Assembly (NCBI GenBank): GCA_017934545.1
Contig: JAGBJI010000013.1
Coordinates: 62,001 to 126,000 of the forward strand
Reading direction: 5' to 3'
Origin: Bacteroidales bacterium
GTDB taxonomy: Bacteria; Bacteroidota; Bacteroidia; Bacteroidales; P3
DNA: 64,000 bases
The notes under the pieces were generated by a model, which was not told where the DNA came from, searched no databases, and was given only the letters and a program-made list of their open reading frames with translations. Positions 6,177 through 62,996 of this stretch are shown piece after piece; position 1 is the first letter of the stretch; each line of letters opens with the position of its first letter. The translations under genes were made by a program, and so were the position numbers.

Positions 6177-6289
6177 TTTTGCCGATTCAGAAAAGAGGAA
6201 TGAAAAAAGCAGGTTTTTTACATCAAAAAAAGTGGTTTTTTACTCAAAAAACCACTTTTTTTCTGAATTGTTTTCTGAATCGGCAAAAA
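6177..6289. repeat. Dispersed 22-bp-periodic element, copy 1 (cores GCAGG/GTGG/CCAC)
   Basis: Perfect outer arms of 18 bp, TTTTGCCGATTCAGAAAA at 6177-6194 and its reverse complement at 6271-6288. They enclose three units of A6-core-T6: GCAGG at 6209, GTGG at 6232 and inverted CCAC at 6252, about 21-22 bp apart. It is intergenic between the minus-strand tRNAs and the plus-strand phospholipase-D-like gene. It could act as a bidirectional terminator, a curved DNA segment or a protein-binding array; the sequence alone does not decide. Confidence 0.85.
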
Positions 6290-6386
6290 CCTTTTCTGAA
6301 AACAAAAAATTGTATTCGCAAAAGGCATTTATAAGTGCTGAACACAGGTGCGTTAAGTGCTTAAAACAAAAAGAAACGGCAAAATA

Positions 6387-6418
6387 TTTGCCCAAGAAAA
6401 AATATTTTCATAATTTTG
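6387..6418 (+). promoter_or_regulatory. Promoter of the phospholipase-D-like gene
   Basis: TTTG at 6387-6390, a 20-base spacer and TAATTTTG at 6411-6418 match the Bacteroidota vegetative promoter (TTTG-N19/20-TAnnTTTG) almost ideally. It places transcription start near 6425 and so rules out upstream start codons for the next gene. Confidence 0.8.
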
Positions 6419-6441
6419 CTGATTATATCCGCAAAAGGCGG

Positions 6442-7527
6442 ATGTGCATGATGATGCAAAACAATGACAAATACATATTGTATGACGACAATCTGAAGAT
6501 GTATGACGCCATGCTGGACGACATCGGCAGGGCTAAAAGGGTCATATTTTTGGAAACTTTCAGATTCGGACGCGGAGCTATGGGCGACAAGTTCCTTTTG
6601 GCTTTGTACAAAAAGGCCAAAGAAGGCGTCAGCGTAAAATTGCTCTTGGATGCGTGGGGAACAGGCAGGGATTTGTCTTATTTTCAACCGATTATAGAGG
6701 CAGGCGTGGAAATCCGTTTGTACCGCAAAGTCAGGCTAACCAAGGGTATGTTGGCAAAGAACCATTGCCGCAATCACAGAAAATTGCTCATCATTGACTC
6801 CGAAATTGCATACATGGGTTCGTCCAACATAACGGCGTACAGCGTTTCGTGGAGGGAGTTGAACTTAAGGACAACCGACCACAAACTGTTGACGGTTTTC
6901 AGACGCAGTTTCAGGGATTCTTTCCGTACATACAACAAATACGACATTCCGATGGTGGCAAGCAACAAAAGTTACCACATTGACGATTGGACGTTTATAC
7001 AGGAGTATCCCGACAGCGTGCGTCAAAGAATAAAAAGAAAGTACGAAAACCTTATAAGACAGGCAAAAAAGAGTATAATAATTGAAACGCCTTATTTTCT
7101 TCCGGGACACAACTTAAGAAAAGAATTGGCGGACGCCGCCAAACGCGGAGTGGACGTCAGGGTTCACGTTCCGTACAATTCGGATGTAAGGGTTGTGGAC
7201 ATAATACGAAGACATTATGCGGGTATTTTGCACAGGGCAGGTATTAAATTTAAGTTCTATGTGCCTGCAAACCTGCATGCTAAAAGTGTGATGATAGACG
7301 GCGAAATTTTTTCCTTATCGTCGGCCAACTTTGATTACAGAAGTTTCCGCTATCAATACGAAATCGCCCTTGTGGGCAAGAATCCTTCAATTATACAGCA
7401 GTTAAAACAACACTACGCATACACCGAACAATACAGCCGTGATTTTGATTACGACACATGGAAGCAACGTTCGGGTATAGAGAAACTTGTGGAATGGATT
7501 TTACTGCCTTTAAGATATTTTATGTAA
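6442..7527 (+). CDS. Phospholipase D-like protein (cardiolipin synthase type)
   Basis: About 361 residues with two HKD motifs: 'NHRKLLIIDSEIAYMGSSN' and 'HAKSVMIDGEIFSLSSANFDYRS'. Two such HxKx4D sites form one active centre in cardiolipin synthases and related phosphatidyltransferases. The usual N-terminal membrane helices of ClsA are absent, so it resembles the short soluble ClsB-type. I chose the ATG at 6442 (6448, 6451 and 6454 also possible) because a strong promoter ends at 6418; the open frame reaches back to 6232 only by running through the repeat element. The activator gene follows after 15 bases. Substrate is inferred from family. Confidence 0.82.
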   Translation: MCMMMQNNDKYILYDDNLKMYDAMLDDIGRAKRVIFLETFRFGRGAMGDKFLLALYKKAKEGVSVKLLLDAWGTGRDLSYFQPIIEAGVEIRLYRKVRLTKGMLAKNHCRNHRKLLIIDSEIAYMGSSNITAYSVSWRELNLRTTDHKLLTVFRRSFRDSFRTYNKYDIPMVASNKSYHIDDWTFIQEYPDSVRQRIKRKYENLIRQAKKSIIIETPYFLPGHNLRKELADAAKRGVDVRVHVPYNSDVRVVDIIRRHYAGILHRAGIKFKFYVPANLHAKSVMIDGEIFSLSSANFDYRSFRYQYEIALVGKNPSIIQQLKQHYAYTEQYSRDFDYDTWKQRSGIEKLVEWILLPLRYFM

Positions 7528-7542
7528 ACTTTACGGGCAATT

Positions 7543-8775
7543 ATGGCAGATATACAGGCAATAAAACAAAGGTTCGGAATAATAGGCAATGACGTGCAAC
7601 TGATGCGTGCAATAGAAGTGGCGGTGGAAGTTGCAATAACGGATATGAGCGTGCTTGTCACGGGAGAAAGCGGCGTTGGTAAAGAAGTTTTTTCAAAGAT
7701 AATCCACAACTATTCCCCCCGTAAACACGGCAAATACATAGCCGTCAACTGCGGGGCTATACCCGAAGGCACCATAGAAAGCGAACTGTTCGGCCATGTC
7801 AAAGGTGCGTTCACCAATGCCGACAGGGACCGCAAAGGATACTTCGCCGAAGCGGACAAGGGTACAATATTTTTGGACGAAGTGGGTGAACTGCCTATGA
7901 ACATGCAGGTTAAACTGTTGCGTGTGCTGGAAAGCGGTGAGTTTCTGCCCGTAGGAAGCAGCAAAACCCTGCATTGCGACGTAAGAGTAGTGGCTGCAAC
8001 CAACGTAAACCTCATCAACGCAATAGAAAAAGGCACTTTCCGCGAAGACCTTTACTATCGGTTGAACCAAATATCCATATCCATACCTCCTCTGCGTAAA
8101 AGAAAAGACGACATATACATGTTGTTCAAACGTTTTGCCGTAGACCAAGCGGAAAAATACAACATGCCCCATATATCGCTCACTCCGCAGGCACGGGAAT
8201 ATCTTAAAAACTATCCTTGGCAGGGAAACGTACGCCAACTTAAAAACGTAGCCGAGCAGATTTCAATAATTGAAAAAGACCGTACTATAGATACGGAAAC
8301 TTTGATGCGTTATATTCCGCCCGTATCCTCATTGCCGATGGTTGTAAACAATGGTTTTGAGAACGTACAGACGCAGGACGAGGCATTGTTTGCCATAATG
8401 CAGAACAAAAAAGACATTGCGGATTTAAGAAACGATGTAGAGCAACTGAAAAACGTAGTTGCAACCCTTATCAACAACCGAATCCCGCACGCAACTCCTT
8501 TGCTTATTGACAACAACGGTGAGATTAACAACAGCACTTACACGCCTGCACATGCGGATATTATCAATGCCGACAGTTATGCGGGCGAAAGCAAAGAACA
8601 AGTCATTGAAATGGACGAAAGCAAGGCCGTGATGACTTTGGCGGAAATGGAAAAACAGGCAATAATATCTTCACTGAAACGCCATAGAGGGCATAGAGCC
8701 CAAGCGGCAAAGGAATTGGGTATATCGGAAAGAACGTTGTACAGAAAAATCAACGATTACAACCTTGACAATTAG
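7543..8775 (+). CDS. Sigma-54-type AAA+ transcriptional activator without receiver domain
   Basis: 410 residues: AAA+ domain from about residue 10 ('GESGVGKE' Walker A, 'GTIFLDEVGELP' Walker B, 'YYRLN' and 'RKDDI' regions) and a C-terminal Fis-type helix-turn-helix ('AQAAKELGISERTLYRKIND'). There is no N-terminal receiver or sensing domain. The loop that touches sigma-54 reads GAFTNA instead of GAFTGA, a change at a position usually critical for sigma-54 contact. A linker of about 100 residues separates AAA+ and HTH. It ends exactly one base before the aroA ATG, so the two are translationally adjacent. No rpoN gene is in the window, and its targets are unknown. Confidence 0.88.
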   Translation: MADIQAIKQRFGIIGNDVQLMRAIEVAVEVAITDMSVLVTGESGVGKEVFSKIIHNYSPRKHGKYIAVNCGAIPEGTIESELFGHVKGAFTNADRDRKGYFAEADKGTIFLDEVGELPMNMQVKLLRVLESGEFLPVGSSKTLHCDVRVVAATNVNLINAIEKGTFREDLYYRLNQISISIPPLRKRKDDIYMLFKRFAVDQAEKYNMPHISLTPQAREYLKNYPWQGNVRQLKNVAEQISIIEKDRTIDTETLMRYIPPVSSLPMVVNNGFENVQTQDEALFAIMQNKKDIADLRNDVEQLKNVVATLINNRIPHATPLLIDNNGEINNSTYTPAHADIINADSYAGESKEQVIEMDESKAVMTLAEMEKQAIISSLKRHRGHRAQAAKELGISERTLYRKINDYNLDN

Positions 8776-10047
8776 ATGGTTAACGGCTGCATAACACTGA
8801 CTTTAGGAAACAAAGCCACAAACGGCACAGTCATAGATTTGCCTTATTCCAAAAGTATCAGCAACCGTTTGCTTATAATCAATTTTCTTTCGGGAAAAGA
8901 CATTGCTTCAAGAGAAAATTTTTCTGATGCCGACGATACGGAATTGTTGTACAATATTTTACAACATGTAAAATACAAAACCGAAAATTCGTTTCATTGC
9001 AAAAATGCGGGTACAAGTACAAGGTTTTTGATTGCTTTGCTATCTTTATGTGAGGGTACGTGGTATCTGAATGCCGACAGACGTATGCAACAAAGGCCTT
9101 TGTTGCCGTTGATTGAGATTTTGACCCGATTGGGTGCGGATATAAACGTTGCAGGCAACGGAAAAATATTTCCACTACGCATTTGCGGAAAAAAATTGCA
9201 ATGCACTCAAACAATCAAAACAGATTGTACGCTGACAAGTCAGATAGTCAGTGCGTTGTTGCTTATATCGCCGTACTTAGAAAACGGAATGAAAATACTA
9301 TTGCCCGAAAATCAAAGTTCCGTTTCATATATAAACATGACAATATCCGCAGTCAATGCTTTCAACGGCAATATCACAAAAGTAAACAATCTGCTTATCA
9401 GCAAACCATCGCAATATAAATTCCGTGACATTGCAACGGAATGGGACTACCCTTCGGCTTGCTTTTTTTATCTCTATACTGCGGTAGGTAAATTGACAAA
9501 TTTACGCATTAACCATCTGCATCCAAGTTCGTTGCAAGGAGAGTCAATTGCGGGTGAATTGTTTCTGAAACTCGGAGTTGAAACTGTGTTTGATTCTTTC
9601 GGAGCTATACTGAATTACAACGAAACATTGATTGACCCGAACGCCGAACTTGTATTTGACACAGGCGATTGCCCCGACATTTTTATTGCATTGGCAACGG
9701 CATGTTTTCTTTCGGGCAGAAAAACAACTATAACCAATCTTGCCCCGCAACGTTTAAAAGAATCAGACCGATTGTCAAGCACCGTAAAAGAACTGAACAA
9801 AGCGGAAAACCGCTGCTCAATCATCGGTGATTCACTTTTTATTGAAAAAAGAACCGCACTTAATTGCAACAAAAATCTGAAAGAATCCGTTATTTGCTTT
9901 TCTTCTTACAATGACCACCGCATTGCCATGGCGTTATGTGCATTTGCTTTTGTCTGCAAGAGAATTGAAATAGACAATCCGTCGTGTACAGAGAAATCTT
10001 TTCCGCATTTTTGGGAACAAGCGGAGAAATTATTTGTTTTAAATTGA
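8776..10047 (+). CDS. aroA: 3-phosphoshikimate 1-carboxyvinyltransferase (EPSP synthase)
   Basis: 423-residue shikimate-pathway enzyme joining phosphoenolpyruvate to shikimate-3-phosphate. Signatures: 'LPYSKSISNRLLI' (S3P-binding Lys/Ser), 'NAGTSTRFLIALL', 'DRRMQQRPL', and the C-terminal 'RLKESDRLS' and 'SYNDHRIAMAL' blocks. The ATG directly abuts the stop of the activator gene. Other shikimate genes are absent nearby. It faces the PHP phosphatase gene tail to tail. Confidence 0.95.
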   Translation: MVNGCITLTLGNKATNGTVIDLPYSKSISNRLLIINFLSGKDIASRENFSDADDTELLYNILQHVKYKTENSFHCKNAGTSTRFLIALLSLCEGTWYLNADRRMQQRPLLPLIEILTRLGADINVAGNGKIFPLRICGKKLQCTQTIKTDCTLTSQIVSALLLISPYLENGMKILLPENQSSVSYINMTISAVNAFNGNITKVNNLLISKPSQYKFRDIATEWDYPSACFFYLYTAVGKLTNLRINHLHPSSLQGESIAGELFLKLGVETVFDSFGAILNYNETLIDPNAELVFDTGDCPDIFIALATACFLSGRKTTITNLAPQRLKESDRLSSTVKELNKAENRCSIIGDSLFIEKRTALNCNKNLKESVICFSSYNDHRIAMALCAFAFVCKRIEIDNPSCTEKSFPHFWEQAEKLFVLN

Positions 10048-10065
10048 GATTTTATCTGATTGTTT

Positions 10066-10923
10066 TTACTTTGTAACGAAAGCATTTATATCTTCCGCAT
10101 GCCAACCTTGCTCAAAATAGTACAATTCTTTGCAGTTAAGTTCTTTTAAATGCCGTAAGGCTTCCTTGTAATAAGCACCGGCTTCATCCGCTTTGTGACA
10201 ATCGGTGCTGACAGTCAGCGGTATATTGTGTTCAATCAAGTATTTAATCCAAAAAGTTGACGGATAATAATCGTTATGTCTTTGTTTGTACAGTCCGCGT
10301 GTGTTTATTTCTACGACAGTGCCGCATTTTGCCACTGTATCTATAAGAGATAAAACCAAATCTTCGTACCATTTCTCGCTCTGAAGGAAATACCTGTCCT
10401 TGTTGTGCATAACCACTTTGTCAAAGTGACCCAACACATCGGGACGGTTATGCTCTATCATCTCTTTTTGTTGATTAAAAAAACACGTAACGCCGCTTTT
10501 TATGTCATTATCAAAGACTTCTTTCAATCCAAGGTCGTATTTCTCACTTTTACCTCCGTCTATAAACCATGTTTTTAGTGAATTATTATGTTCTTTTACC
10601 TGATGGACGCTCCCGATAAAGTAATCCAACCCATAATCCACCGCCTTGTGCCGTATATCTTCGCATATATCAGGCACAAAATCCATTTCCAATCCTATAT
10701 AAAGTTTGATTTTGTCCGCATATTTATCTTTCAACCGCAGAAATTCACGCTTGTATGCAGGAATATCTTCTTCTTTCAATGCAAAATCATTGCTTATCGG
10801 AAACGGAGCGTGCGAAGATACGCCCCAATGGGTAAATCCGCACTCTACGGCACTGATTACCATCTCTTCCATAGTGCTTTTGCCGTCGCAAAAGGTTGAA
10901 TGCGAATGATAGTTTGTAAGCAT
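10066..10923 (-). CDS. PHP-family histidinol-phosphatase
   Basis: 285 residues of the polymerase-and-histidinol-phosphatase fold. Metal-binding motif 'NYHSHSTFCDGK' at the N-terminus, then 'GVSSHAPFP', 'GLEMDF', 'HFDK', 'EINTRGL' and 'STDCHK' supply the expected metal ligands in order. The size and motifs fit HisJ/HisK, which removes phosphate from L-histidinol phosphate, but closely related PHP phosphatases act on other small phosphates. Its ATG overlaps the stop of the U32 gene by one base (TAATG), so the two form an operon. Confidence 0.82.
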   Translation of the reverse strand: MLTNYHSHSTFCDGKSTMEEMVISAVECGFTHWGVSSHAPFPISNDFALKEEDIPAYKREFLRLKDKYADKIKLYIGLEMDFVPDICEDIRHKAVDYGLDYFIGSVHQVKEHNNSLKTWFIDGGKSEKYDLGLKEVFDNDIKSGVTCFFNQQKEMIEHNRPDVLGHFDKVVMHNKDRYFLQSEKWYEDLVLSLIDTVAKCGTVVEINTRGLYKQRHNDYYPSTFWIKYLIEHNIPLTVSTDCHKADEAGAYYKEALRHLKELNCKELYYFEQGWHAEDINAFVTK

Positions 10924-12161
10924 TATTTGTGGATTATCTTATATAGTTTGTCGTTTCTTCTCACTACACAGGAGGTAGGTATTGAAAACATCTCGCCCTT
11001 AATGGTTTTTTGCACTGGCTTTAGGTCAACGCGTATCTCTTTTACCATATCTTCGTAAACTCCGGTCGTAGGTCCGATAATATAAATATCATCTCCCACC
11101 GACAATTCTCCCGTTTCCGTACGAATTTCCGCAACGTTTATGTTCTTAAAATAGTTTGTCACCGTACCTATAAAGACTTTTGTCGTCGTTGCCTGCGAAC
11201 CGTACTTTTCAGACCACTCTCCTACACGTTGTCCGAGGTAGTATCCGTCCCAAAAATCTCGGTTGTAAACCTTACGCAAGTCCGTATTCCATTTTTCCAA
11301 CAGCTCTTGGCTCCAAGTACCGTTGCAATATGCCTGAACCGCTTGCTTATAACAACGGGTTACAACCTTGACATATTCGGGCGACCTGCCTCTTCCTTCT
11401 ATTTTAAACACTCTTACGCCCGCATCAATTATACGGTCAATGAAGTCAATGGTCTTTAAATCTTTGGGACTCATTATATATTCATTGTCAATCATCAGTT
11501 CGGTACCGCCGTCGGTATCCGTAACGCGGTAAGGTCTGCGGCAAAACTGCAAACACGCCCCTCTGTTAGCACTCATGTTAGCATTGTCAAGCGATATATA
11601 GCATTTGCCCGAAACAGCCATGCACAATGCCCCGTGTACAAAGCATTCTATCCGCAGCAATCCGCCGCTTTTCCCCCTTATATTCTGAATTTTTATCTGC
11701 TCGGTGATGTATTTTACCTTGTCCAAACTCAATTCACGGGCGGTAACTATCACATCGGCAAATTTTGCATAAAACTTAACGGCTTCCAAATTGGTTATAT
11801 TGCATTGGGTGGACAGATGAATCTCCATACCCACCGAGTTGGCGTAAGAAATCACCGACATATCGGACGCAATCACCGCACTGACCCCGTTTTGCATCGC
11901 TGCGTCGATGACTTGGTGCATATAAGGTATTTCGCTGTCGTATATTACCGTGTTAACGGTCAGATATGTCTTTATATTATGACTCTTGGCAATGGCACAT
12001 ATTTGTTTTAAATCGTCAAGGTTAAAGTTATTGGCAGAGTGTGACCGCATATTCAGTTGCCCTACGCCGAAATATACACTGTCAGCCCCCGCTTCAACGG
12101 CCGCCATCAGCGATTCGTACGAACCGACGGGCGACATTATCTCTATTTGTTCAGAATTCAT
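10923..12161 (-). CDS. Peptidase U32 family protein (tRNA hydroxylase TrhP-like)
   Basis: 412 residues starting 'MNSEQIEIMSPVGSYESL', a typical U32 N-terminus; an upstream in-frame ATG at 12191 would add ten non-conserved residues. The core 'IECFVHGALCMAVSGKCYIS', 'NRGACLQFCRRPY' and 'KIEGRGRSPEYVK' is the family signature with conserved Cys. Single-copy bacterial U32 proteins of this length include TrhP/YegQ and YrrO, which hydroxylate tRNA uridine 34; the 'peptidase' name is historical. The substrate is inferred. A -7 box lies at 12238-12245, and the PHP phosphatase gene overlaps its end. Confidence 0.83.
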   Translation of the reverse strand: MNSEQIEIMSPVGSYESLMAAVEAGADSVYFGVGQLNMRSHSANNFNLDDLKQICAIAKSHNIKTYLTVNTVIYDSEIPYMHQVIDAAMQNGVSAVIASDMSVISYANSVGMEIHLSTQCNITNLEAVKFYAKFADVIVTARELSLDKVKYITEQIKIQNIRGKSGGLLRIECFVHGALCMAVSGKCYISLDNANMSANRGACLQFCRRPYRVTDTDGGTELMIDNEYIMSPKDLKTIDFIDRIIDAGVRVFKIEGRGRSPEYVKVVTRCYKQAVQAYCNGTWSQELLEKWNTDLRKVYNRDFWDGYYLGQRVGEWSEKYGSQATTTKVFIGTVTNYFKNINVAEIRTETGELSVGDDIYIIGPTTGVYEDMVKEIRVDLKPVQKTIKGEMFSIPTSCVVRRNDKLYKIIHK

Positions 12162-12245: not shown

Positions 12246-12256
12246 GTAAATAAAAA

Positions 12257-14255: not shown

Positions 14256-14326
14256 AACTTCAAAAAGTGTCACTTTTTGAATGAAAGGTGACACTATACT
14301 AATGTAAAGGTGACACTTTTTGAACT
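14256..14326. repeat. Dispersed 22-bp-periodic element, copy 2 (core GTGTCAC/GTGACAC)
   Basis: Three 7-bp cores at 14267, 14288 and 14310 (periods 21 and 22): GTGTCAC, GTGACAC, GTGACAC. A-rich and T-rich tracts flank the first and last, so CAAAAAGTG...CACTTTTTG pairs. Outside, at 14180-14250 and 14330-14420, GC-bearing blocks such as GGCCGAAAAAA and TTATTCGGC recur in opposite orientation as a loose outer inverted repeat. The arms differ from those of the other copies, so family membership rests on the period and unit architecture. Confidence 0.6.
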
Positions 14327-18586: not shown

Positions 18587-18701
18587 TTTTTGCCCCTTGC
18601 GAAAGTAATCCGAAAAAAAATAGGTTTTTTAACTTAAAAAAATAGGTTTTTTCGGTCAAAAAATCTGATTTTTTTAAAACTCTTTTCTGAAAAGGCAAAA
18701 A
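18587..18701. repeat. Dispersed 22-bp-periodic element, copy 3 (cores TAGG/TAGG/TCTGA)
   Basis: Outer TTTTTGCC at 18587 and GGCAAAAA ending at 18701 (115 bp). Cores TAGG at 18621 and 18643 (22 bp apart) and TCTGA at 18664, each between A6-8 and T6-7 runs. It lies between the divergent fucosidase gene and the kinase/Hxs operon. It is an inverted near-duplicate of copy 7: by hand alignment only three of 115 bases differ, all in one spacer. Confidence 0.88.
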
Positions 18702-24728: not shown

Positions 24729-26129
24729 ATGAAACGCTACCGTTTGCTTCCGTTTTGCTTTACCGCCGTTGCGGACAAAGAAATTCTGACCAACGAACTG
24801 GGCGACATGATTGCCGCTCCGCTCGGAACGGTGCAGGCAATTGTCAACCGCAAACTGCAAGACGGGGAACTGTACAAATCTTTGGTTGCAAACTTTTTTA
24901 TTTCCGAACAACTCTTACCGCCGTTGATTGACGTGTATGCTTCACGGTTGAGAATGAAAAAACGTTTTTTGGACGACCGCACCTCGCTTCATATCTTTGT
25001 TTTGACATTGCGGTGCAACCAAAACTGCATATATTGCCAAGCATCAAGCCGTGAAGAACACTCAAAGCATTGTTCCATGACCTTTGAAGCGATGGAAAAT
25101 TCCGTCAATCTTATGTTCCGCTCCCCGTCCGAACACTTGACAATGGAGTTTCAGGGCGGAGAACCGAGTTTGGAATACGGCTTGATAAAATTCGGAATAG
25201 AAAAAGCCGAACAAATCAACCAAACGGAAAACCGCAAAATTACTTACGTGCTTTGTACCAACTGCAGAAATCTTTCCGATGAGGTGTTGGATTTGTGCAG
25301 AACATACAATGTGCTTATCTCAACGTCGTTGGACGGCCCTGCGTTTTTGCATAACGCCAACAGAGGCAAAACCGACAGTTACCAAAAAACCATTGCAGGC
25401 ATAGAAAAAGCCCGCACGGTGTTGGGACATGAGCGTGTGTCGGCATTGATGACCACTTCCCAAGCGGCATTGGATTATCCCAAAGAAATAGTTGACGAAT
25501 ATGTCAAAAACAAATTCAGCGGTATTTTCCTCCGTGCGTTGAACCCTTACGGTCTTGCCATGCAAAACAACGATTGGGACGGATATACCGAAAGGTTTAT
25601 AAGTTTTTACAAACAGGCATTGGACTATATAATACAGTTGAACCTCAACGGAACATTTTTCCGTGAGGAATATGCCTGCATAATTTTACGCAAAATGCTC
25701 ACCCCTTACTCAACGGGATTCGTTGATTTGCAATCCCCTGCGGGTATTGTCAACTCCGTACTCGTGTACAACTACGACGGCAAAGTATATGCCTCGGACG
25801 AATCAAGGATGTTGGCACAAAACAACGACTATACTTTTGCTTTGGGCAAGGCTTCGGACAGATACGAAGACATTGTCTGCGGAAAAAAAGTGTTGGAATT
25901 GGGCAAAATATGGGCTAACGAAGTATTGGCAGGTTGTTCGGATTGTGCTTTTAAGGTGTATTGCGGTGCAGACCCGGTAAGAAACCATTCAACGCAAGGT
26001 GATATGTACGGATTCCGTCCCGATTCGCAGGTATGCCGAAAAAACAAAGCCATAATTGAATACCTTATTTATCTGATTACGCAAAAAGGCAACGGGGTTT
26101 TGAGCGTATTTAAAAGTTGGTTAAGATGA
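24729..26129 (+). CDS. hxsB: Radical SAM maturase HxsB
   Basis: 466 residues. The iron-sulfur/SAM motif is C96-NQN-C100-IY-C103, followed by 'MEFQGGEPSLE' (SAM-binding GGE) and 'ISTSLDGP'. The C-terminal third has a Cys cluster like SPASM/twitch maturases: 'CSDCAFKVYCGADP' and 'QVCRKN', likely holding auxiliary clusters. It belongs to the peptide-modifying radical SAM group; HxsA is the expected substrate. The ATG follows the hxsD stop with no gap and the end overlaps hxsC by four bases. Confidence 0.9.
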   Translation: MKRYRLLPFCFTAVADKEILTNELGDMIAAPLGTVQAIVNRKLQDGELYKSLVANFFISEQLLPPLIDVYASRLRMKKRFLDDRTSLHIFVLTLRCNQNCIYCQASSREEHSKHCSMTFEAMENSVNLMFRSPSEHLTMEFQGGEPSLEYGLIKFGIEKAEQINQTENRKITYVLCTNCRNLSDEVLDLCRTYNVLISTSLDGPAFLHNANRGKTDSYQKTIAGIEKARTVLGHERVSALMTTSQAALDYPKEIVDEYVKNKFSGIFLRALNPYGLAMQNNDWDGYTERFISFYKQALDYIIQLNLNGTFFREEYACIILRKMLTPYSTGFVDLQSPAGIVNSVLVYNYDGKVYASDESRMLAQNNDYTFALGKASDRYEDIVCGKKVLELGKIWANEVLAGCSDCAFKVYCGADPVRNHSTQGDMYGFRPDSQVCRKNKAIIEYLIYLITQKGNGVLSVFKSWLR

Positions 26130-27061
26130 AACAAACACTGAAAACAGATTCCGACAGCAATATATTGTTTGTCACAAACCGTTGTAACAACCGTTGCCTC
26201 ATGTGCTGCCAACCGCCCAAAGACAGTTGTGACACGGATTATTTCTTTAAAAAGAACATTGACCTTGTGGCTTCGGCACCCAAGGATGTGAAAACGGTGT
26301 GCATAACGGGCGGCGAGCCGACGCTTGAGGCTGACAGACTGATAGAACTTGTGGACTTTGTACACCGGACTTTGCCTGATACACAGATACATATACTGTC
26401 CAACGGACGCAATTTCGCAAACCCTGACTTGGCACGTCAGTTAAAACTTGCAGCAGGGGACCATGTGCTTGTGGGCGTTGCGTTGCACTCCGACTATTGC
26501 GGTGACCACGATTTGATTGCAGGACAAAAAGACGCATTCAATCAAACCGTCACGGGTCTGTACAATTTGGCGGACAATGACATCGCAACGGAACTGCGTG
26601 TGGTTATAAACAAACTCAACTATACGAGGCTTGAACATATGTCGGAGTTTATCTTCAAAAACCTTTACTTCGTTGCATGGACGGCTTTCATGGCTATGGA
26701 GTATACGGGGTGGGCGGTAAAAAACCGCAATATGATTTGGGCAGAACCCGTTGACTATATGCCCTATTTGTGCAGGGCGGTAAAAAATTTAAGTCAAAAC
26801 TGCATGGAAGTTTTTATTTACAATATACCGCTTTGTCTTATTCCCGACGCTATGCGTCACTATGCCGTAAGGAGCATATCCGATTGGAAAGTGGTATATG
26901 CCGACACCTGTCTTGCATGTTCGGCAAAAGATTTGTGCTGCGGGCTGTTCGGCACTTCAAAACGGCGGTTTGAAGGATTGAAACCTATAAACGCCGTTGC
27001 CGATTCAGAATTCACTTCGGAAAAAACCCCCTTTTTTGACCCGAAAAACCCCCTTTTTTGA
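26126..27061 (+). CDS. hxsC: Radical SAM enzyme HxsC with a tail encoded by a repeat element
   Basis: 311 residues from the ATG at 26126 (ATGA overlap with hxsB; an upstream TTG at 26117 is unlikely). The radical SAM motif is C20-NNR-C24-LM-C27, then 'VCITGGEPTLEADRL'. A C-terminal Cys group ('TCLACSAKDLCCGLFG') resembles that of other HxsC proteins. The last 21 codons, from 'VADSEF' to the stop, are read from dispersed element copy 4: the normal end was replaced by 'TPFF' and 'NPLF' repeats. This tail is very unlikely to be functional but shows that the element inserted at, or recombined into, the end of the gene. Confidence 0.9.
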   Translation: MKQTLKTDSDSNILFVTNRCNNRCLMCCQPPKDSCDTDYFFKKNIDLVASAPKDVKTVCITGGEPTLEADRLIELVDFVHRTLPDTQIHILSNGRNFANPDLARQLKLAAGDHVLVGVALHSDYCGDHDLIAGQKDAFNQTVTGLYNLADNDIATELRVVINKLNYTRLEHMSEFIFKNLYFVAWTAFMAMEYTGWAVKNRNMIWAEPVDYMPYLCRAVKNLSQNCMEVFIYNIPLCLIPDAMRHYAVRSISDWKVVYADTCLACSAKDLCCGLFGTSKRRFEGLKPINAVADSEFTSEKTPFFDPKNPLF

Positions 27062-27110
27062 GTGAAAAAACCCCCTTTTTTTGACAACGGAATGCGAAGA
27101 GGCAAAAACC
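26997..27110. repeat. Dispersed 22-bp-periodic element, copy 4 (core CCCCC x3)
   Basis: Three CCCCC cores at 27027, 27049 and 27071, exactly 22 bp apart, each between A5-6 and T6-7. Arms: GTTGCCGATTCAGAATTC at the left, GCGAAGAGGCAAAAACC at the right. The left half lies inside hxsC and contributes its last 21 codons and stop (27059-27061). Confidence 0.87.
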
Positions 27111-32840: not shown

Positions 32841-32975
32841 AATCTCTTTTCTGAAAACAGAGAAAAAAAACATATGTATTTTTTTGAAAAAACATATGAA
32901 TTTTGAATGAAAAACATATGTTTTTTGTTTCAAAAACATATGTTTTTTTATTTTTGTTTCTGATTTCAATGTTTT
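32841..32975. repeat. Dispersed 22-bp-periodic element, copy 5 (core CATATG x4)
   Basis: Four palindromic CATATG cores at 32871, 32893, 32915 and 32937, each exactly 22 bp apart, embedded in A and T runs. Left arm pieces TTTTCTGAAAAC resemble those of copies 1 and 9; the right arm is poorly conserved (TTGTTTCTGATTTC). The only four-unit copy of the family proper. It lies between the deaminase gene and prfB on the same strand. Confidence 0.83.
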
Positions 32976-35707: not shown

Positions 35708-35822
35708 TTTTTGCCCCTTCTGAAAACAATCTCAAAAAAAATAGGTTTTTTTGGTGAAAAAATGTGGTTTTTTGAGGCAAAAAATGTGATTTTTTTGAGA
35801 TTACTTTCGCAAGGGGCAAAAA
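35708..35822. repeat. Dispersed 22-bp-periodic element, copy 6 (cores TAGG/TGTGG/TGTGA)
   Basis: 115 bp between convergent genes. Left arm TTTTTGCCCCTTCTGAAAAC, right arm TTTCGCAAGGGGCAAAAA; inner stems AATCTCAAAAAAA / TTTTTTTGAGATT pair. Cores at 35742, 35763 and 35785, 21-22 bp apart. Weaker outer flanks (CGCCCTTTCGCATTTGA and CAAAAGGCGG) extend it to roughly 150 bp. The left and right arms are of different subtype, as if recombined from two elements. Confidence 0.87.
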
Positions 35823-40529: not shown

Positions 40530-40644
40530 TTTTTGCCTTTTCAGAAAAGAGTTTTAAAAAAATCAGATTTTTTGACCGAAAAAACCTATTTTTTTGAGGC
40601 AAAAAACCTATTTTTTTTCGGATTACTTTCGCAAGGGGCAAAAA
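40530..40644. repeat. Dispersed 22-bp-periodic element, copy 7 (cores TCAGA/CCTA/CCTA)
   Basis: 115 bp, an inverted near-duplicate of copy 3 (three differences in my hand alignment, in one spacer: GAGGC against AAGTT). Cores at 40563, 40585 and 40607, exactly 22 bp apart. It lies between the divergent pseudouridine synthase and RND efflux genes. Confidence 0.88.
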
Positions 40645-50442: not shown

Positions 50443-50557
50443 TTTCTGCCCCTTGCGAAAGTAATCTCAAAAAAAATAGGTTTTTTCACTCAAAAAAATA
50501 GATTTTTTCATGTAAAAAACCTATTTTTTTTCAGATTAAAGTGCGAAGGGGCGGAAA
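50443..50557. repeat. Dispersed 22-bp-periodic element, copy 8 (cores TAGG/TAGA/CCTA)
   Basis: 115 bp. Arms TTTCTGCCCCTTGCG / CGAAGGGGCGGAAA, where both arms carry the same change relative to other copies (TTTC/GAAA instead of TTTT/AAAA). Cores at 50477, 50499 and 50520. Inner AATCT / AGATT also pair. Right flank AACGCAAAAGGCGG matches those of copies 3, 6 and 7. Confidence 0.88.
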
Positions 50558-55837: not shown

Positions 55838-55950
55838 TTTTTGCCGATTCAGAAAACAATCTGAAAAAAGGTGCTTTTTTCATGTAAAAAAAGTGGTTTT
55901 TTCAGTCAAAAAACCACTTTTTTTAAAATCAGAATGCGAATCGGCAAAAA
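55838..55950. repeat. Dispersed 22-bp-periodic element, copy 9 (cores GGTGC/GTGG/CCAC)
   Basis: 113 bp. Arms TTTTTGCCGATTCAGAAAAC and GCGAATCGGCAAAAA (GATT pairs with AATC). Cores near 55870, 55893 and 55914, about 22 bp apart. Closest to copy 1 in both arms and cores. It lies between the T9SS cargo gene and tRNA-fMet, both on the minus strand. Confidence 0.87.
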
Positions 55951-58005: not shown

Positions 58006-59793
58006 TTAGAAGTTTATAATGTAATCCATCCGCATTTGAACGCCTTGCATCTCACTTATGTCCTTCAACTGCAAGAAGAAAGAATACGGTTTACCCAATT
58101 CTTTGGTCAGGGATTTCATTTTGGTTTCTTCGGACGTGGTACTCATAATCTGGTCTAATATTCCCATAGTTTTAGGATAGGTAACAATGCCGTAAGACTT
58201 CAGATTAGCCTTGTTTGCAGCCACTTGGATTGCTTTTTTAAGTCCGCCGAATTCATCAACAAGCCCTATCGGTTTAGCGTCTGCACCACTCCAAACTCTG
58301 CCTTTAGCAATGGTGTTGATATATTCAGGAGTTTTTCCTCTGCCCTGCGCAACTTTTGCAATGAAGTTTGTATAAAAGTTTTCTACATTGCGTTGCATCA
58401 TAGCCTTTGCTTCTTTTGTCATCGGAGTAAATATACTCATCGGATTACTGTTAGCATGCGTTTTCACCGTATCAAATGTTATTCCTATCTTATTCTTCAA
58501 CGCTCTGCCGAAGTTAGGAATCACGCCGAAAACTCCTATAGACCCTGTGATAGTTGTTTGGTTTGCAACAATGTAAGAAGCATTTGACGACATTTCATAA
58601 CCTGCCGATGCTGCCATATCACCCATTGAAACGATGACAGGTTTTTTCTTTTTAGCCTTTATTACTTCGTTTGTAATCAATTCGCTTGCTACGGCATCGC
58701 CTCCGGGAGAATTCACCCTCAAAACAATGGCCTTGACTTTGTCGTTATCAGCTGCACGTTCTATTGCTTTACATACTGTTTCGCTGCCTATACTCAAATC
58801 TCCGCCCTTACCTTGATTGACATTGCCGTAAGCATATACAATAGCGATGTTTTCACTCTGCGGTTTGTTTATATCAGTTATTGACTTGCGGTATTTGTCA
58901 TATGAAATATAATTAATCTTTGTTTTTGCGGAAAGTTTGTTCTTTGCAATGACATCTTTGTTTATCGTATCCTTGTAATCGGATTTGAAACCAAGGTAAT
59001 CTATCAATTTATTGTTGTACGCATCCTGCGGAAGAAAGCCTTGCAAAGAAGCAATCAAGTCGTTGAATCTCTGCTCATCAATACCTCTTGCTTTAGACAT
59101 TTGCGAAGACAGAACGCTCCAAATAGAATTCAGATACTGACGTGTCTGAATGCGGTTGGAATCTGACATATGGTTCATCGTATATGTTTCACCTGCTGAC
59201 TTGTATGCGTTGTTGACAGGACGGATTAAATCAACATCAATGTCAAGCTTGGCAATCAAATCTTTGTAATACATCACTTCGCCGCCCAATCCCGACAAAG
59301 TAACCATACCCGCAGGATTGACCATAATCTTATCCGCAACGGTTGCAATGTAATAGGATTTTTGGTCAACCATATCGCCGTAAGCATAAATTTTTTTACC
59401 GTTGGTTTTGAAATCCTGCAATATTTCCCTGACTTCCTGTGCAGTTGCAACGCCGTTTGCCTGAAACATTCCTATATTAAGCATTATGGCTTTAATGTTT
59501 TTGTCATTTTTCGCCTTTTCTATCACTTGCATAAACTCCGTAAGACCTATTGCTTTGTTGTTTATGCCGTCCGTTGAAAGCATTGACTGAATATCTTCAA
59601 TCTCCCGGTCATACACAGGATTGGAAAGGTCAACAACCAAAACGGAGTTGTCTTTTACCTTAACGTCATCGCTGTTTTTGCCAACGGATGCAATCATTGA
59701 GGTGATAACACCCAAAATTATGAAAAACGACAGTATCATCGCCAACCCGCTGCCTAAACACGAGGCAAAAAGGAATTTAAAAAACTGTTTCAT
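58006..59793 (-). CDS. sppA: Signal peptide peptidase SppA, long (67K) type
   Basis: 595 residues with an N-terminal membrane anchor (about 12-35) and two tandem protease-like domains. The catalytic Lys lies in the first half ('NNAYKSAGE'), the Ser in the second ('MGDMAASAGYEMSS'), with 'RVNSPGGDAVASE' before it. It digests cleaved signal peptides in the inner membrane. Upstream promoter boxes fit well. The T9SS cargo gene follows 15 bases on. Confidence 0.94.
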   Translation of the reverse strand: MKQFFKFLFASCLGSGLAMILSFFIILGVITSMIASVGKNSDDVKVKDNSVLVVDLSNPVYDREIEDIQSMLSTDGINNKAIGLTEFMQVIEKAKNDKNIKAIMLNIGMFQANGVATAQEVREILQDFKTNGKKIYAYGDMVDQKSYYIATVADKIMVNPAGMVTLSGLGGEVMYYKDLIAKLDIDVDLIRPVNNAYKSAGETYTMNHMSDSNRIQTRQYLNSIWSVLSSQMSKARGIDEQRFNDLIASLQGFLPQDAYNNKLIDYLGFKSDYKDTINKDVIAKNKLSAKTKINYISYDKYRKSITDINKPQSENIAIVYAYGNVNQGKGGDLSIGSETVCKAIERAADNDKVKAIVLRVNSPGGDAVASELITNEVIKAKKKKPVIVSMGDMAASAGYEMSSNASYIVANQTTITGSIGVFGVIPNFGRALKNKIGITFDTVKTHANSNPMSIFTPMTKEAKAMMQRNVENFYTNFIAKVAQGRGKTPEYINTIAKGRVWSGADAKPIGLVDEFGGLKKAIQVAANKANLKSYGIVTYPKTMGILDQIMSTTSEETKMKSLTKELGKPYSFFLQLKDISEMQGVQMRMDYIINF

Positions 59794-60126
59794 CGTTGTA
59801 TGTAAAATGTTTTAAAGGTTAATAATTATTTATTGTGTTGCAAAATTACGAAAATTTTATATTTCCCAAATAAATACGTTATACTTTCGTACAAAATAAC
59901 CCAAATTATATAAACTATTAACAATCTATAAAACTCAAAAAACACATTATAAACGTTGTTTTAAACAGCATTCCGTTGATTTGGTTGGATGTTACTTTGT
60001 TGAGGTTTATCGGTTCGGGGAAAGTAATGTTGTTTTTAAGTAGGTATAGAATGTCTTGTCGTAAAGAGGCCGATACGTTTCAGTGCAAATATGTTCACTT
60101 ATTATGTATAAATAAAATACTTCTGC
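59794..60126. other. Intergenic region with sppA promoter and a possible gene remnant
   Basis: The left part holds the sppA promoter. On the minus strand, about 59930-60079 is open for some 50 codons ('ASLRQDILYLLKNNITFPEP', then 'INLNKVTSNQINGML') and has the composition of real protein, but no start codon in a sensible place and a stop upstream. It may be the decayed end of a former gene. I cannot name a family. Confidence 0.35.
59841..59870 (-). promoter_or_regulatory. Promoter of sppA
   Basis: Minus strand TTTG (59870-59867), 18-base spacer, TAATTTTG (59848-59841), 48 bases upstream of the ATG at 59793. Confidence 0.7.
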
Positions 60127-60525
60127 TTAATCATTAATTAAAACAGAAATGCGGGTTATTAATTCCGATGTTTTATCTATCAATGGTTCTATATCTTCTT
60201 TTGTTGCCGTAAATGAACAGTTATAATCGCTTTTTTCCCTTATTGTCTGAAGTTGTGAATATAATTTGCCGTCTTCTTTAGTTAATTTACCTGTTACAAT
60301 ATAATATTGTCCCAATAACGCCACTACTCCCTTATGTGTTGAAACGGAATGTTTGTCTTTGATAAGCAAAGCACACGCTGCATGAAATGTTGCATAATAC
60401 AGTCTGTTTGCAACCATATCCCAATATTCCAATTGTTTCAAACTTTCTACTTGTGATAAGGTTGTTTTTGCTTTTGCTAATTCTAAATCTACTATTATCC
60501 TTCTTTCTTCGTCAGTTAGGCTCAT
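60127..60525 (-). CDS. HEPN-domain protein (UPF0332 type)
   Basis: 132 residues, all helical. 'WDMVANRLYYATFHAACALL' and 'STHKGVVALLGQYYIVTGKL', then 'LQTIREKSDYNCSF', are the HEPN/UPF0332 pattern. HEPN proteins next to a minimal nucleotidyltransferase form toxin-antitoxin-like pairs, where HEPN is usually the toxin or an RNA-binding partner. The classic RNase motif Rx4-6H is not obvious here, so an RNase activity is doubtful. The start overlaps the nucleotidyltransferase stop by four bases (ATGA). Confidence 0.85.
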   Translation of the reverse strand: MSLTDEERRIIVDLELAKAKTTLSQVESLKQLEYWDMVANRLYYATFHAACALLIKDKHSVSTHKGVVALLGQYYIVTGKLTKEDGKLYSQLQTIREKSDYNCSFTATKEDIEPLIDKTSELITRISVLIND

Positions 60526-60833
60526 AACAATTTGATTTTGTCCGTTTCAACATTCTTATAAAAAGGCATAAATGACATATTCTGCCACTCTTGTTTGGTG
60601 TATAAGACAGGAATGATAGATTGTCCTAACTGCCACCCTAAATAAGTAAAAGGGTATGCAATATTGTCATAATCCGATTGCTCTAACTTGCTTTTATCTA
60701 ATAGTATCAACAAATCCCAATCAGAATCAGCGTTTGCATCTCCTCTTGCTCTTGAACCGTATAAAACAGCATCACCGTTAAGAGGAATCACATCTTTTGC
60801 AACTTGCTTTATCTTGTCTATTATATCCGTCAT
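60522..60833 (-). CDS. Minimal nucleotidyltransferase (MNT) paired with HEPN
   Basis: 103 residues from the ATG at 60833 ('MTDIIDKIKQVAKD'). The active site is 'LYGSRARGDANADSDWDLLIL' (GSxxxG...DxD). The longer frame to 60884 is rejected because the -7 box at 60851-60858 would lie inside it. In related pairs the MNT AMPylates or otherwise neutralises its HEPN partner. Confidence 0.85.
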   Translation of the reverse strand: MTDIIDKIKQVAKDVIPLNGDAVLYGSRARGDANADSDWDLLILLDKSKLEQSDYDNIAYPFTYLGWQLGQSIIPVLYTKQEWQNMSFMPFYKNVETDKIKLL

Positions 60834-60846
60834 ACAAATATTATTC

Positions 60847-60873
60847 TCTGCAAAAATACTAATTTTCTTTAAG
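60847..60873 (-). promoter_or_regulatory. 27-base promoter block, copy A, of the MNT/HEPN module
   Basis: On the minus strand it holds TATTTTTG (60858-60851) as -7 box. The whole 27-base block is identical to 61562-61588 upstream of the second module. Confidence 0.7.
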
Positions 60874-60910
60874 TCTATTTGCATATAAAATTTGTTATTT
60901 CTAATATGTG

Positions 60911-61249
60911 TTAATCATTTTGTAATAATGATAAAACATCTTTATGCAGTTGCGGAATATGTTTGATAACTAAACTCCAAAGGAATTCTGGCGTTACACT
61001 ATCGTAGCCATGAATAACTCTGTTACGTGTATTAATTACTGCTTTTGCATTATTAAGAATAATGTCAGGGTTATTCTTTAAAAGATGCGTAATAGCCTCT
61101 CCCATAATCTCAACATTCCTTTCAACTGCACGTTGTTTCATGATATCTTTCTCAAACTCAGCAAAGATTTTTTCACCGTTAAAGAAACTTTCTATTTCTT
61201 TACAAGCATTTAAGACGTCAATTAAATATTTTTTTGAGTATTCATCCAT
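60911..61249 (-). CDS. hepT: HepT-like HEPN ribonuclease (DUF86)
   Basis: 112 residues. The HEPN RNase motif is intact as 'INTRNRVIHGYD' (RNxxxH followed by GY/D), the form in which HepT toxins act on RNA or tRNA. 'QRAVERNVEIMGEAIT' is the other DUF86 hallmark. The start overlaps the end of the mntA gene by eight bases. Confidence 0.9.
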   Translation of the reverse strand: MDEYSKKYLIDVLNACKEIESFFNGEKIFAEFEKDIMKQRAVERNVEIMGEAITHLLKNNPDIILNNAKAVINTRNRVIHGYDSVTPEFLWSLVIKHIPQLHKDVLSLLQND

Positions 61250-61541
61250 AGATTTTTACTTTTGTACGCTCTACATTATCAAGAAAAACAGGATTGCGGA
61301 TAGATTTCAATTCCACTAAATCAATTTCTCGTGTCAATAGTTCAGATAATGCGAATTGCAAAGCGAAATAATTGTCGGCATAATCTTCAATTGGAATAGT
61401 TTTAAAACGTACGAGAAAATCAATATCGCTATCGGAATTAAATTTATCGGTTAGTACAGAACCGAAAACATCCAACGATGCAACATTGTACCTATTGCAT
61501 AATGATTTTATTGCATCTATATTTTCATCTATAGCTATCAT
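61242..61541 (-). CDS. mntA: MntA-like antitoxin nucleotidyltransferase
   Basis: 99 residues with 'LDVFGSVLTDKFNSDSDIDFLVRF' (GS...DxD active site) and 'LLTREIDLVELKSIRNP'. In the studied HepT-MntA pair, MntA AMPylates a Tyr of HepT and blocks it; HepT here carries the Tyr of 'HGYD' next to the catalytic His. First gene of its module, 18 bases after the expected transcript start. Confidence 0.9.
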   Translation of the reverse strand: MIAIDENIDAIKSLCNRYNVASLDVFGSVLTDKFNSDSDIDFLVRFKTIPIEDYADNYFALQFALSELLTREIDLVELKSIRNPVFLDNVERTKVKIYG

Positions 61542-61561
61542 ATACTTTTCATTCTAATGTT

Positions 61562-61588
61562 TCTGCAAAAATACTAATTTTCTTTAAG
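61562..61588 (-). promoter_or_regulatory. 27-base promoter block, copy B, of the mntA-hepT module
   Basis: Identical to 60847-60873. The -7 box is TATTTTTG (61573-61566 on the minus strand). Its upstream end (CTTAAAG) also contains the TAA stop codon of the methyltransferase gene. Confidence 0.7.
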
Positions 61589-62780
61589 ATACATATATAT
61601 TATCATTCAATGTTTTGTCTTCCGGTTGTTGTTTGCTCATCTTTTTGCTGCCTTCGTACATTTCAAATTTGTAGAGTTTGCATTCCAAGTTGCCGTTATA
61701 GACATCTATCTTTTTACTTGGTTTCAAACCGATTTTTTTCAAGGCAAAAACATCCGAACTTATGACATAAGCCGTACAACCCGTATAATAGCGTTTGAAA
61801 GTGTCGCCGATACGTTCGTAAAGTGCTACAATATCATCTACTTCCAATCTTTCGCCGTAAGGAGGATTCATTATAACCAATGTTTTCCCCTCGGGACGGT
61901 CGCCTTCTTCCATTGCAGAGCGGCAGACGTTGATGTCAAAATTAAGTTTTGCGTATTTAATATTTTCTTTTGCTTTATCAACGGCTTCCTGTGACACATC
62001 TGTAGCCCAAATCTCGTAATCAAATTCAGTAACTTTCTTGTCAGCGGCTTCTTTCTCCTGTTTCCACTCTACATTATTAAATTCACTCCATTTTTGAAAG
62101 CCGAAACGTTTTCTAAAGTACTGAGCAGGAATATTCATTGCGTACATAGCGGCTTCAATAGCAATCGTACCGCTACCGCACATAGGGTCAATAAAATTAC
62201 AATCTTTTTGCCAACCTGAAAGTTGGATAATACCTGCGGCAGTTACTTCATTAATAGGTGCTTGTCCCGTAGTCTGACGGTAACCACGCTTAAAAAGTTT
62301 ATCGCCTGAGGAATCAAAAGACAGAGTTACGTCATTACCCGAAATATGTAAGTCAATCTTTAAGTCAGGATTCTCTTTATCAACCGAAGGCCGCACGTTA
62401 AAGTATTTTCTGAACCTGTCGCAGATGGCATCTTTTGTTTTCTGGGCGGCATATAACGAATGGTTGAAAACTTTTGAAGCAACGGAGGCGTCAATCATAA
62501 ACGTACCGTCGGGATTCATAAATTTCTCCCATTGCATTTTGTAAATATTATTGTAAAGTTCCTGTTCGTTCTTGGCAGTAAAGGTTGCAATGGGTTTAAG
62601 TATGCAAAGAGCTGTACGCAAACAATAATTGGCACGGTACAACAGCCTCATATCACCGTAAAACTCCACTGCACGGTGCAGTTTTGTAATCTCTTTCGCT
62701 CCTAATTGCTCCAACTCCTTAGCAAGTACGCCTTCCAAACCGTACATTGTCTTGGCAATCATTTTAAATTCCTTATCCAT
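61584..62780 (-). CDS. RlmL-type 23S rRNA (guanine-N2) methyltransferase
   Basis: 398 residues: N-terminal ferredoxin-like and THUMP RNA-binding region (about 1-160), then a class I SAM methyltransferase with 'FIDPMCGSGTIAIEAA' (SAM loop) and 'LVIMNPPYGERL' (NPPY catalytic motif for amine methylation). E. coli RlmL fuses this to a second methyltransferase (RlmK); only the first half exists here, as in most bacteria. The last codons run into the mntA promoter block. Confidence 0.9.
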   Translation of the reverse strand: MDKEFKMIAKTMYGLEGVLAKELEQLGAKEITKLHRAVEFYGDMRLLYRANYCLRTALCILKPIATFTAKNEQELYNNIYKMQWEKFMNPDGTFMIDASVASKVFNHSLYAAQKTKDAICDRFRKYFNVRPSVDKENPDLKIDLHISGNDVTLSFDSSGDKLFKRGYRQTTGQAPINEVTAAGIIQLSGWQKDCNFIDPMCGSGTIAIEAAMYAMNIPAQYFRKRFGFQKWSEFNNVEWKQEKEAADKKVTEFDYEIWATDVSQEAVDKAKENIKYAKLNFDINVCRSAMEEGDRPEGKTLVIMNPPYGERLEVDDIVALYERIGDTFKRYYTGCTAYVISSDVFALKKIGLKPSKKIDVYNGNLECKLYKFEMYEGSKKMSKQQPEDKTLNDNIYVS

Positions 62781-62886
62781 CCCTTATATTTATTATTTGT
62801 TATATATTTTCTTTATAAAATTCTAAAAATCTTGTATTTCAATTATGCCGTATATTATTTTATTTTTGCCTTATTATTTATCATAG

Positions 62887-62996
62887 TTGCCTTATCACAC
62901 TTTATTTTCAAAAAAGCCACTTTTTTCACCTAAAAAACCCACTTTTTTGATAAGAAAAACCCACTTTTTTAAGATTAATATTTAACAAGGCAAAAT
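62887..62996. repeat. Dispersed 22-bp-periodic element, copy 10 (cores GCCAC/CCCAC/CCCAC)
   Basis: Cores at 62916, 62938 and 62960, exactly 22 bp apart, between A5-6 and T6 runs. Arms are worn: GTTGCCTTATC at the left, AACAAGGCAAAAT at the right. A right flank TAACGTAAGGCGTT recalls the GGCGG flanks of other copies. Between two minus-strand genes. Confidence 0.82.

Follow-up and report, generated by a model that had tools for sequence, protein, structure and literature searches.

Correia elements, ERIC sequences, and other bacterial repeats resembling miniature inverted-repeat transposable elements (MITEs) are ~100 to 150 base pairs (bp) long, have inverted ends, lie between genes, and reach high copy numbers. 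REPIN and BIME repeats are described in PMC3116915 as REP-based repeats with RAYT transposases. The BrickBuilt MITE of Porphyromonas gingivalis, as presented in PMC4596501, consists of tandem 23-nucleotide (nt) repeats without spacers, is found in 19 copies in strain ATCC 33277, and has ends closest to ISPg1/ISPg9. The periodicity of phased A-tracts in prokaryotic genomes appears in PMC3940949 and PMC3431218 as genome-wide statistical signals. Here, we analyze a 64,000-nt window (bases 62001–126000 of contig C4 in the 2.377-Mb assembly of a Bacteroidales bacterium, genome G000), in which an intergenic element recurs that carries units of an A-run, a core, and a T-run spaced by two helical turns. 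The repeats are real, and the phenomenon is larger than first noted: the discrete ~115-bp elements belong to a broader tendency, seen in part of a single Bacteroidales family, to carry two-turn ladders between genes. We read the elements, with a probability of roughly 45%, as DNA-level docking arrays for a dimeric, A-tract–binding protein of the nucleoid type at transcription-unit boundaries.

Each full element follows one plan, in which GCC and GGC arms surround three A-run/core/T-run units placed ~22 bp apart. Units were detected with a strict pattern, A5+/core/T5+, and arrays in later counts needed at least three of them. In the window, the pattern gave nine clusters, eight with three units and one with two, which amount to 17 adjacent pairs; 100 window-sized first-order Markov sequences yielded a mean of 0.01 and a maximum of 1 such pair, so the window arrays are not a product of chance. 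The original prediction, made from the letters of the window, had listed ten copies of one design. Eight of them (at 6177, 18587, 26997, 35708, 40530, 50443, 55838, and 62887) do share it, with arrays starting at 6203, 18613, 27021, 35734, 40556, 50469, 55864, and 62910, while the other two differ, which makes three kinds (8 + 1 + 1). Measured from five bases before GCC to five bases after GGC, the eight three-unit copies have the expected length of 113 to 115 bp; four of the eight carry the outer arms proposed for the best copies, TTTTTGCC and GGCAAAAA, in exact form at both ends. At 32841, the copy consists of four CATATG units (32863–32949) and has no GCC or GGC within 32 bp. The copy at 14256 has a single A5-core-T5 unit; since GTGnCAC dyads stand at 14267, 14288, and 14310 (21 and 22 bp apart), it is a related ladder of different sequence (14262–14323), and CGGC was seen by eye to recur at 21-bp steps just downstream.

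Many more copies were found in G000 beyond the window. A 424,756-bp sample, made of stretches that we chose non-randomly, contained 58 arrays (56 in a run requiring three units on the joined stretches), none of them inside a gene among the 54 with called genes on both sides. Extrapolation gives ~300 per genome, in line with the hundreds originally suggested. The spacing between unit centers was 22 to 22.5 bp in 62 of 82 intervals in G000 and in 74 of 110 in the congener G001, as expected for two helical turns per unit. Under a detection rule that needed at least three units, exactly three were present in 35 of 39 non-CATATG arrays in G000 and in all 55 arrays in G001; the spacers between units are variable, mostly 4 to 6 bp. 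The register continues outside the arms. To the left, GCC recurs at 21 to 22, 42 to 43, and 63 to 64 bp in 31, 21, and 18 of 34 copies; to the right, GGC recurs at the same distances in 31, 20, and 17 (an example of the left side is 62847–62883, with GCC at 42 and 21 bp from the arm’s GCC). Autocorrelation of the flanks was 0.37 at lag 21 versus mostly 0.25 to 0.30 elsewhere, with a second peak at 42. With these outer rings, the visible structure is therefore symmetric and ~190 bp long.

Arms and cores fall into subfamilies. Subfamily A has the cores CCTAT, CCACA, TCACA, and TCAGA in either orientation; subfamily B has the arms GCCGATTC and the cores CCTGC and CCACT; subfamily C consists of CATATG arrays, such as that at 32863–32949, and has four units in 13 of 17 cases in G000. 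Further core sets are CCCCC, CCCAC, and CCCGGTA. Arm and core types are linked in all 32 of the 39 non-CATATG copies that have two like arms: 23 combine two A arms with A cores, and 9 combine two B arms with B cores. Of the remaining seven, three have one A arm and A cores, one has unclassed arms and A cores, and three have other cores, one of these with mixed arms. Among the 23 (G000, 425 kb) and 49 (G001, 899 kb) matches to the arm motifs, which were drawn from known copies, none lacked an array and none belonged to a longer parent with the same arms. A further repeat type, with CTTTTCTGAAAAG-like palindromes between A- and T-runs, was noticed at L034 15073, L035 6187, L042 16894, and L044 7335.

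The elements occupy gaps between genes. Genes were called with a simple codon-usage caller, whose start positions are approximate, and the calls in G000 and G001 confirmed that copies occur between divergent, convergent, and codirectional genes. In G000, arrays were present in 20 of 47 gaps between divergent genes, 31 of 222 between codirectional genes, and 5 of 44 between convergent genes. When gaps of at least 200 bp were assessed, arrays were found in 20 of 30 divergent, 27 of 51 codirectional, and 5 of 13 convergent gaps in G000 and in 19 of 52, 21 of 126, and 6 of 33 in G001. None of 56 arrays in G000 and one of 55 in G001 lay wholly within a called gene. These counts describe a dispersed intergenic family and support the earlier view that the copies are not just terminators; an intrinsic terminator, expected at gene 3′ ends and not in divergent gaps, does not fit the 20/47 versus 5/44 contrast. 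Between codirectional genes, 45 of 56 copies from both genomes are closer to the upstream stop (medians of 81.5 and 173 bp). The TAnnTTTG box, which we take to be the Bacteroidetes promoter motif, was found in the interval from array to gene start for 50 of 70 genes in G000 and 45 of 66 in G001, with ~12 chance matches expected in each. A separation of at least 55 bp between box and array end holds for 48 of the 50 boxes in G000 and for all 45 in G001, and the array-to-box distance is broad, from 13 to 462 bp.

The strict three-unit A5/T5 pattern was matched in 9 of 190 genomes of the family. The counts, which include overlapping matches, were 225 in G000, 191 in G001, 67 in G009 (an assembly only 69% complete), 3 in G002, 3 in G006, 1 in G013, and 1 in each of three genomes of genus g10. 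For G000, such totals, the extrapolated ~300 arrays among them, run somewhat high because contig C7 repeats C4; over the 75 kb compared, the two are 99.99 to 100% identical and are the same sequence, the G000 assembly being partly redundant. In G001, long A and T runs enclose the cores CAG, CCC, CTA, and CAC, and in G009 the cores are of the CTC, CAG, and CCTATG types. The arm query gave eight matches in G002. Readable copies there have kept the arms and mostly ACCYY-type spacers, but their cores differ (GCCCC, GACTGAC, and GTCCGAC), and one copy (L259, 1435–1500) has conserved arms and spacers with CCTAG-type units instead of A-runs. Among the matches listed, single three-unit patterns also occur outside the genus (L050, L053, L055, L056, L085, and L089), for example, in Mucilaginibacter, Lentisphaerae, Flavobacteriaceae, Clostridia, and Chitinophagaceae. 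One scan for viral carriers gave one match; the stretch read there contains a short direct tandem repeat lacking the arms of these elements.

Two-turn spacing with other letters extends further. Intergenic regions of at least 110 bp were scanned for a 60-bp stretch matching itself at 60% or more at lags of 15 to 28. In the 11 congeners besides G000, G001, and G009, 115 regions gave 23, 3, and 2 matches at lags 21, 22, and 23 and 0 to 1 at each other lag; nine of the 11 had a match at 21 to 23, the two without one being G003 and G012 (4 and 5 regions). In 12 genomes from other genera of the family, 119 regions gave 9, 9, and 4 matches at these lags and 0 to 3 at others, and 7 of the 12 genomes had a match, one of those in G203 being a plain CAAA repeat. 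In 12 genomes of other families, 74 regions gave 0, 1, and 0 matches, with none at other lags, and dinucleotide shuffles gave 0 to 1. Since leakage from coding sequence would peak at all multiples of three, the contrast of lag 21 with lags 15, 18, 24, and 27 matters, and it holds. Ladders were found in genera g1, g2, g4, g10, and g12 and were absent from the samples of g3, g5, g6, g8, and g11, each of one genome. Examples with a 22-bp step are CTTTCGSCGAAAG in G025, TACCTCGTGAGGTA in G014, ATCATGSCATGAT in G200, and AAAAAGCSGCTTTTT in G203; those with a 21-bp step are AAAACTTTGTTTT in G008 and GTGTTTAACACT in G006. The constant trait across ladder-bearing genomes is the 21- to 22-bp unit spacing. 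These ladders with other letters, at 21 to 23 bp in the scan, are new in this analysis, as are the ladder beyond the arms and the arm-core linkage; the original prediction had overlooked the outer rings, the linkage, and the turnover between species.

Orthologous places were compared between G000 and G001. Of 69 gaps with both neighbors conserved, an array was present in both genomes in 3, only in G001 in 1, only in G000 in none, and in neither in 65. At orthologous 5′ ends, the corresponding numbers (both, G000 only, G001 only, neither) were 10, 13, 2, and 95 (Fisher P = 5 × 10−7), or 10, 12, 1, and 12 when the gaps were at least 120 bp on both sides (P = 0.027); at 3′ ends, they were 3, 12, 2, and 101 (P = 0.014), or 3, 8, 1, and 10 for gaps of at least 120 bp (P = 0.59), with some gaps entering these counts from both sides. 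An array in G001 thus adjoins 10 of the 23 orthologous gene starts that have one in G000, with different arms and cores. The 10 pairs, which involve nine different G000 arrays, are no more alike than mismatched ones (array score of 56.0 versus 56.1; arms, 21.3 versus 21.1). The pair at 62.9 kb is the only one whose two outer flanks each find their best match in the true partner; its center differs. Nested insertion, leaving old arms as outer rings, was rejected: it fits this one pair of the 10, and the pooled pairs gave no significant signal. Independent insertion in tolerant gaps is possible.

Bending was computed from wedge values, with dinucleotide-shuffle controls. The predicted bend was 91° for non-CATATG arrays and 86° for CATATG arrays in G000 and 88° for arrays in G001, compared to 35° to 39° in shuffles. 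The strong curvature originally expected from phased A-tracts is therefore predicted for the arrays, but it is not universal: the left outer 63 bp of G000 copies have no excess bend (23° versus 33° shuffled), and among 12 further genomes, mostly with one to five ladders each, the mean bend exceeded shuffles in 10, the exceptions being G005 (three ladders) and G007 (two ladders). On account of these five ladders and the left outer rings, static curvature is doubtful as a universal trait.

If the elements are docking arrays, each unit is a plausible site for one protein dimer, since the units are near-palindromic, and the dimers would line up on one helix face at 22 bp. The arms and outer rings, in 21-bp steps inverted about the center, would extend this register to ~190 bp. 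Assembled in this way, the complex would sit at transcription-unit boundaries on the upstream side of promoters, where it would bend or wrap the DNA and serve as a structural or supercoiling boundary. Copies of ~115 bp would spread in the genome by gene conversion or by means of some enzyme, arms and cores changing together. In favor of this reading are the nearly constant unit number and spacing, the low divergence of A/T runs, the outer rings, the linkage of arms and cores, the lack of arm motifs without an array, the position outside genes and upstream of promoter boxes, the ladders in further genomes, the arrays with other letters at orthologous places, and the HU-type matches given below. 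The likeliest binder would be a protein of the HU/IHF type. Matches to the HU-HIG model (PF18291) numbered 14 in G000, where those on C4 and C7 are probably one gene, 4 in G001, and 13 in G009; the model also matches ordinary HU and was positive in 9 of 14 controls, including Escherichia coli and Bacillus subtilis. With such matches present, an HU/IHF-type dimer is therefore a candidate only.

Several observations weigh against docking arrays. The searches yielded HU-type candidates only and identified no binder, and the number of HU-type genes does not track the number of arrays (4 genes in G001). Many gaps of at least 200 bp have no array (42 of 94 in G000 and 165 of 211 in G001), and of the 23 gene starts with an array in G000, 13 lack one in G001; therefore, no single copy looks essential. 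The constancy of A/T runs, which speaks for docking, is partly built in: in copy pairs at least 80% alike (26 in G000 and 325 in G001), spacers differ at 39 to 44% of positions, cores at 23 to 45%, arms at 18 to 21%, and A/T runs at 2.5 to 2.6%, but the last figure is biased low because arrays were detected by their A/T runs. When folded as single strands, all eight armed copies of the window are more stable than shuffles (z of −2.7 to −9.2), as a hairpin element would be. An element’s own arms also pair better with each other than with the arms of other copies: z was 3.4 in G000 for GCC+3 to +7 and 4.4 for the next ring, and, weakly, 2.4 in G001 for the first segment only. The A and B subfamilies may explain part of this arm pairing.

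The main rival to docking is a selfish miniature mobile element of the MITE or REPIN kind, without host function, in which the arms would be the ends, the array would be the site of the enzyme, and similarity would reflect bursts of copying; we regard it as unlikely on balance, though as the strongest of the alternatives. Near-identical dispersed copies do exist. The copies at 18587–18701 and 40530, which lie in opposite orientations, share 97.4% identity over 115 bp, a match that stops 26 bp beyond the array at either side, and dispersed CATATG copies are 100% identical over 112 and 92 bp and 98% identical over 112 bp. Among the 25 best-matching pairs of each genome, the shared segment ends 20 to 31 bp outside the array on both sides in 16 in G001 and 3 in G000; in the others it reaches further or less far, and pairs near 90% identity could reflect a shared consensus instead of recent copying. 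The uneven distribution, with many matches in G000, G001, and G009 and few in G002, G006, G013, and the three g10 genomes, also suits a mobile element, as does the congener RGIG5007, which has an array-free gap of 41 bp where G000 has 254 bp with an array, between flanking genes that are 92 to 93% identical. However, no direct-repeat signal of target duplication was seen at the ends (best z of 2.7 for 38 copies in G000 and 2.1 for 51 copies in G001, with 112 offset-width tests each), and no arm motif was found without its array. As the original prediction had it for the window, no transposase explains the copies, at least within the four families searched. The RAYT-type Y1_Tnp (PF01797) was absent from all 14 congeners, with the control positive in 5 of 14 reference genomes. 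DDE_Tnp_1 (PF01609) was present in 4 of the 14 congeners and absent from G000, G001, and G009, and these three genomes also lacked rve (PF00665) and Transposase_20 (PF02371), other transposase families being outside the search. IS110-type, DDE_Tnp_1, and rve transposases were accordingly rejected as movers, with the caveat that one of the three array-rich genomes, G009, is 69% complete. Nor would a selfish element by itself lead one to expect that other species and genera have two-turn ladders with unrelated letters.

Other readings account for parts of the same evidence. The promoter boxes downstream of the array, the near-palindromic units, and the single core set per arm type would suit operators, meaning upstream sites at which one or several ordinary regulators switch the neighboring promoter. 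We consider this improbable since some array-bearing gaps are convergent (5 of 56 in G000 and 6 of 49 in G001), the array-to-box distance is broad, and the window neighbors scanned belong mostly to ordinary metabolic and housekeeping families. The folding of all eight armed copies, the pairing of own arms, and the position of six of the eight G002 relatives between called convergent genes speak for an RNA-level element, either a terminator working in both directions or a structured RNA arising when the hairpin is transcribed. A hairpin may contribute, since own arms pair above permutation. As the selected form, a hairpin is disfavored, and an RNA-level element as a whole appears very improbable: in three species, pairing between the cores of the first and third units is close to that of permuted cores (5 of 35 versus 3.3, 9 of 55 versus 8.0, and 6 of 17 versus 4.7), most unit stems in G000 are A-U only, an Rfam search of the window matched tRNAs only, and in G000 the arrays favor divergent over convergent gaps and stand upstream of promoter boxes. 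A neutral minisatellite arising from slippage and fold-back template switching could explain why tandem 21- to 22-bp steps and inversions occur together, but it has the least to recommend it. The number of units hardly departs from three, A/T runs persist (in part because detection relied on them) as spacers drift, and the first two units of G001 arrays have the same core type in 6 of 55 cases versus ~18 in permutations, an avoidance not seen in G000 or G009.

In the window, the first full element (6176–6289), identified by reading and by pattern search, belongs to subfamily B, with arms GCCGATTC and cores GCAGG/AGTGG/CCACT; just before it, at 5651–5949 on the minus strand, is a cluster of three tRNA genes (Arg, Pro, and Ser). 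Subfamily A is represented by 18587–18701 and by copies between convergent (35708–35822), divergent (40530–40644), and codirectional (50443–50557) genes, and a second subfamily B copy (55838–55950) also lies between codirectional genes. The element at 26994–27108 has CCCCC cores and one arm of each type; a radical-SAM open reading frame (26126–27061) runs into it and ends inside the array, its last codons and stop being apparently supplied by the element. The last element (62884–62996) has GCCAC/CCCAC cores, and at the same place, G001 has an array with other cores and RGIG5007 has none. Window positions 61616–64000 together with L045 1–2406 are 92 to 94% identical to RGIG5007 (L116), compared to ~72 to 87% for most other G000 matches to two named congeners; judging by this identity, the block shared around 61616–64000 is likely the result of recent exchange. 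At 60127–61541 are two adjacent pairs of small genes, a HEPN domain with a nucleotidyltransferase and a HepT-like protein with a nucleotidyltransferase, presumably with the make-up of HEPN-MNT toxin-antitoxin pairs.

If the arrays do dock a nucleoid protein, a site of fixed geometry marks about half of the larger gaps in G000 (52 of 94 of at least 200 bp) and a fifth in G001 (46 of 211), which would offer a countable model for the partitioning of a bacterial chromosome. Letters that change at constant spacing would give a handle on the joint change of a protein and hundreds of its sites. Should the elements instead turn out to be mobile, their mover is not among the four transposase families tested. 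More speculatively, and in our view rather unlikely, the ladders may form a geometry-defined class of intergenic DNA, in which several genera of one Bacteroidales family retain the two-turn distance between dyads, and the letters, arms, and cores are replaced jointly from one species or subfamily to the next. Such a class would reflect a fast-evolving recognition code between a DNA-organizing protein and hundreds of docking sites and, by analogy, would be a bacterial counterpart of satellite/centromere coevolution.

In accordance with the original prediction, no description of this design was found in open-licence papers in PubMed Central, and each of the closest systems differs from it. Correia, ERIC, and other MITE-like repeats share the length of ~100 to 150 bp, the inverted ends, the intergenic position, and the high copy number; here, in contrast, no target duplication was detected, there is an internal two-turn array, and spacing is conserved while letters change. 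Inverted ends and a short length (113 to 115 bp) place the elements close to MITEs, but without a target-site duplication, membership was rejected. Like REPIN and BIME repeats, as far as PMC3116915 describes them, the elements are short, extragenic, inverted, of high copy number, species-specific in their letters, and copied within the genome. Although they are inverted, extragenic, and numerous as REPINs are, membership in REPIN/REP-BIME or a RAYT origin was rejected, since 14 of 14 genus genomes have no cognate RAYT-type transposase; in addition, the body consists of phased A-run dyads, and a 21-bp ladder continues beyond the arms. BrickBuilt, in the description of PMC4596501, likewise lies between genes in a member of the Bacteroidales, has inverted ends, and contains an array whose period (23 nt) is similar, but the elements described here have mostly three or four non-identical, spaced units, hundreds of copies by extrapolation, and no match to the four transposase families. 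The phased A-tract periodicity of PMC3940949 and PMC3431218, to the extent that these sources cover it, has A-runs phased with the helix in common with our elements, which differ in being discrete, ~115 bp long, bounded by arms, and built of a nearly fixed number of units.

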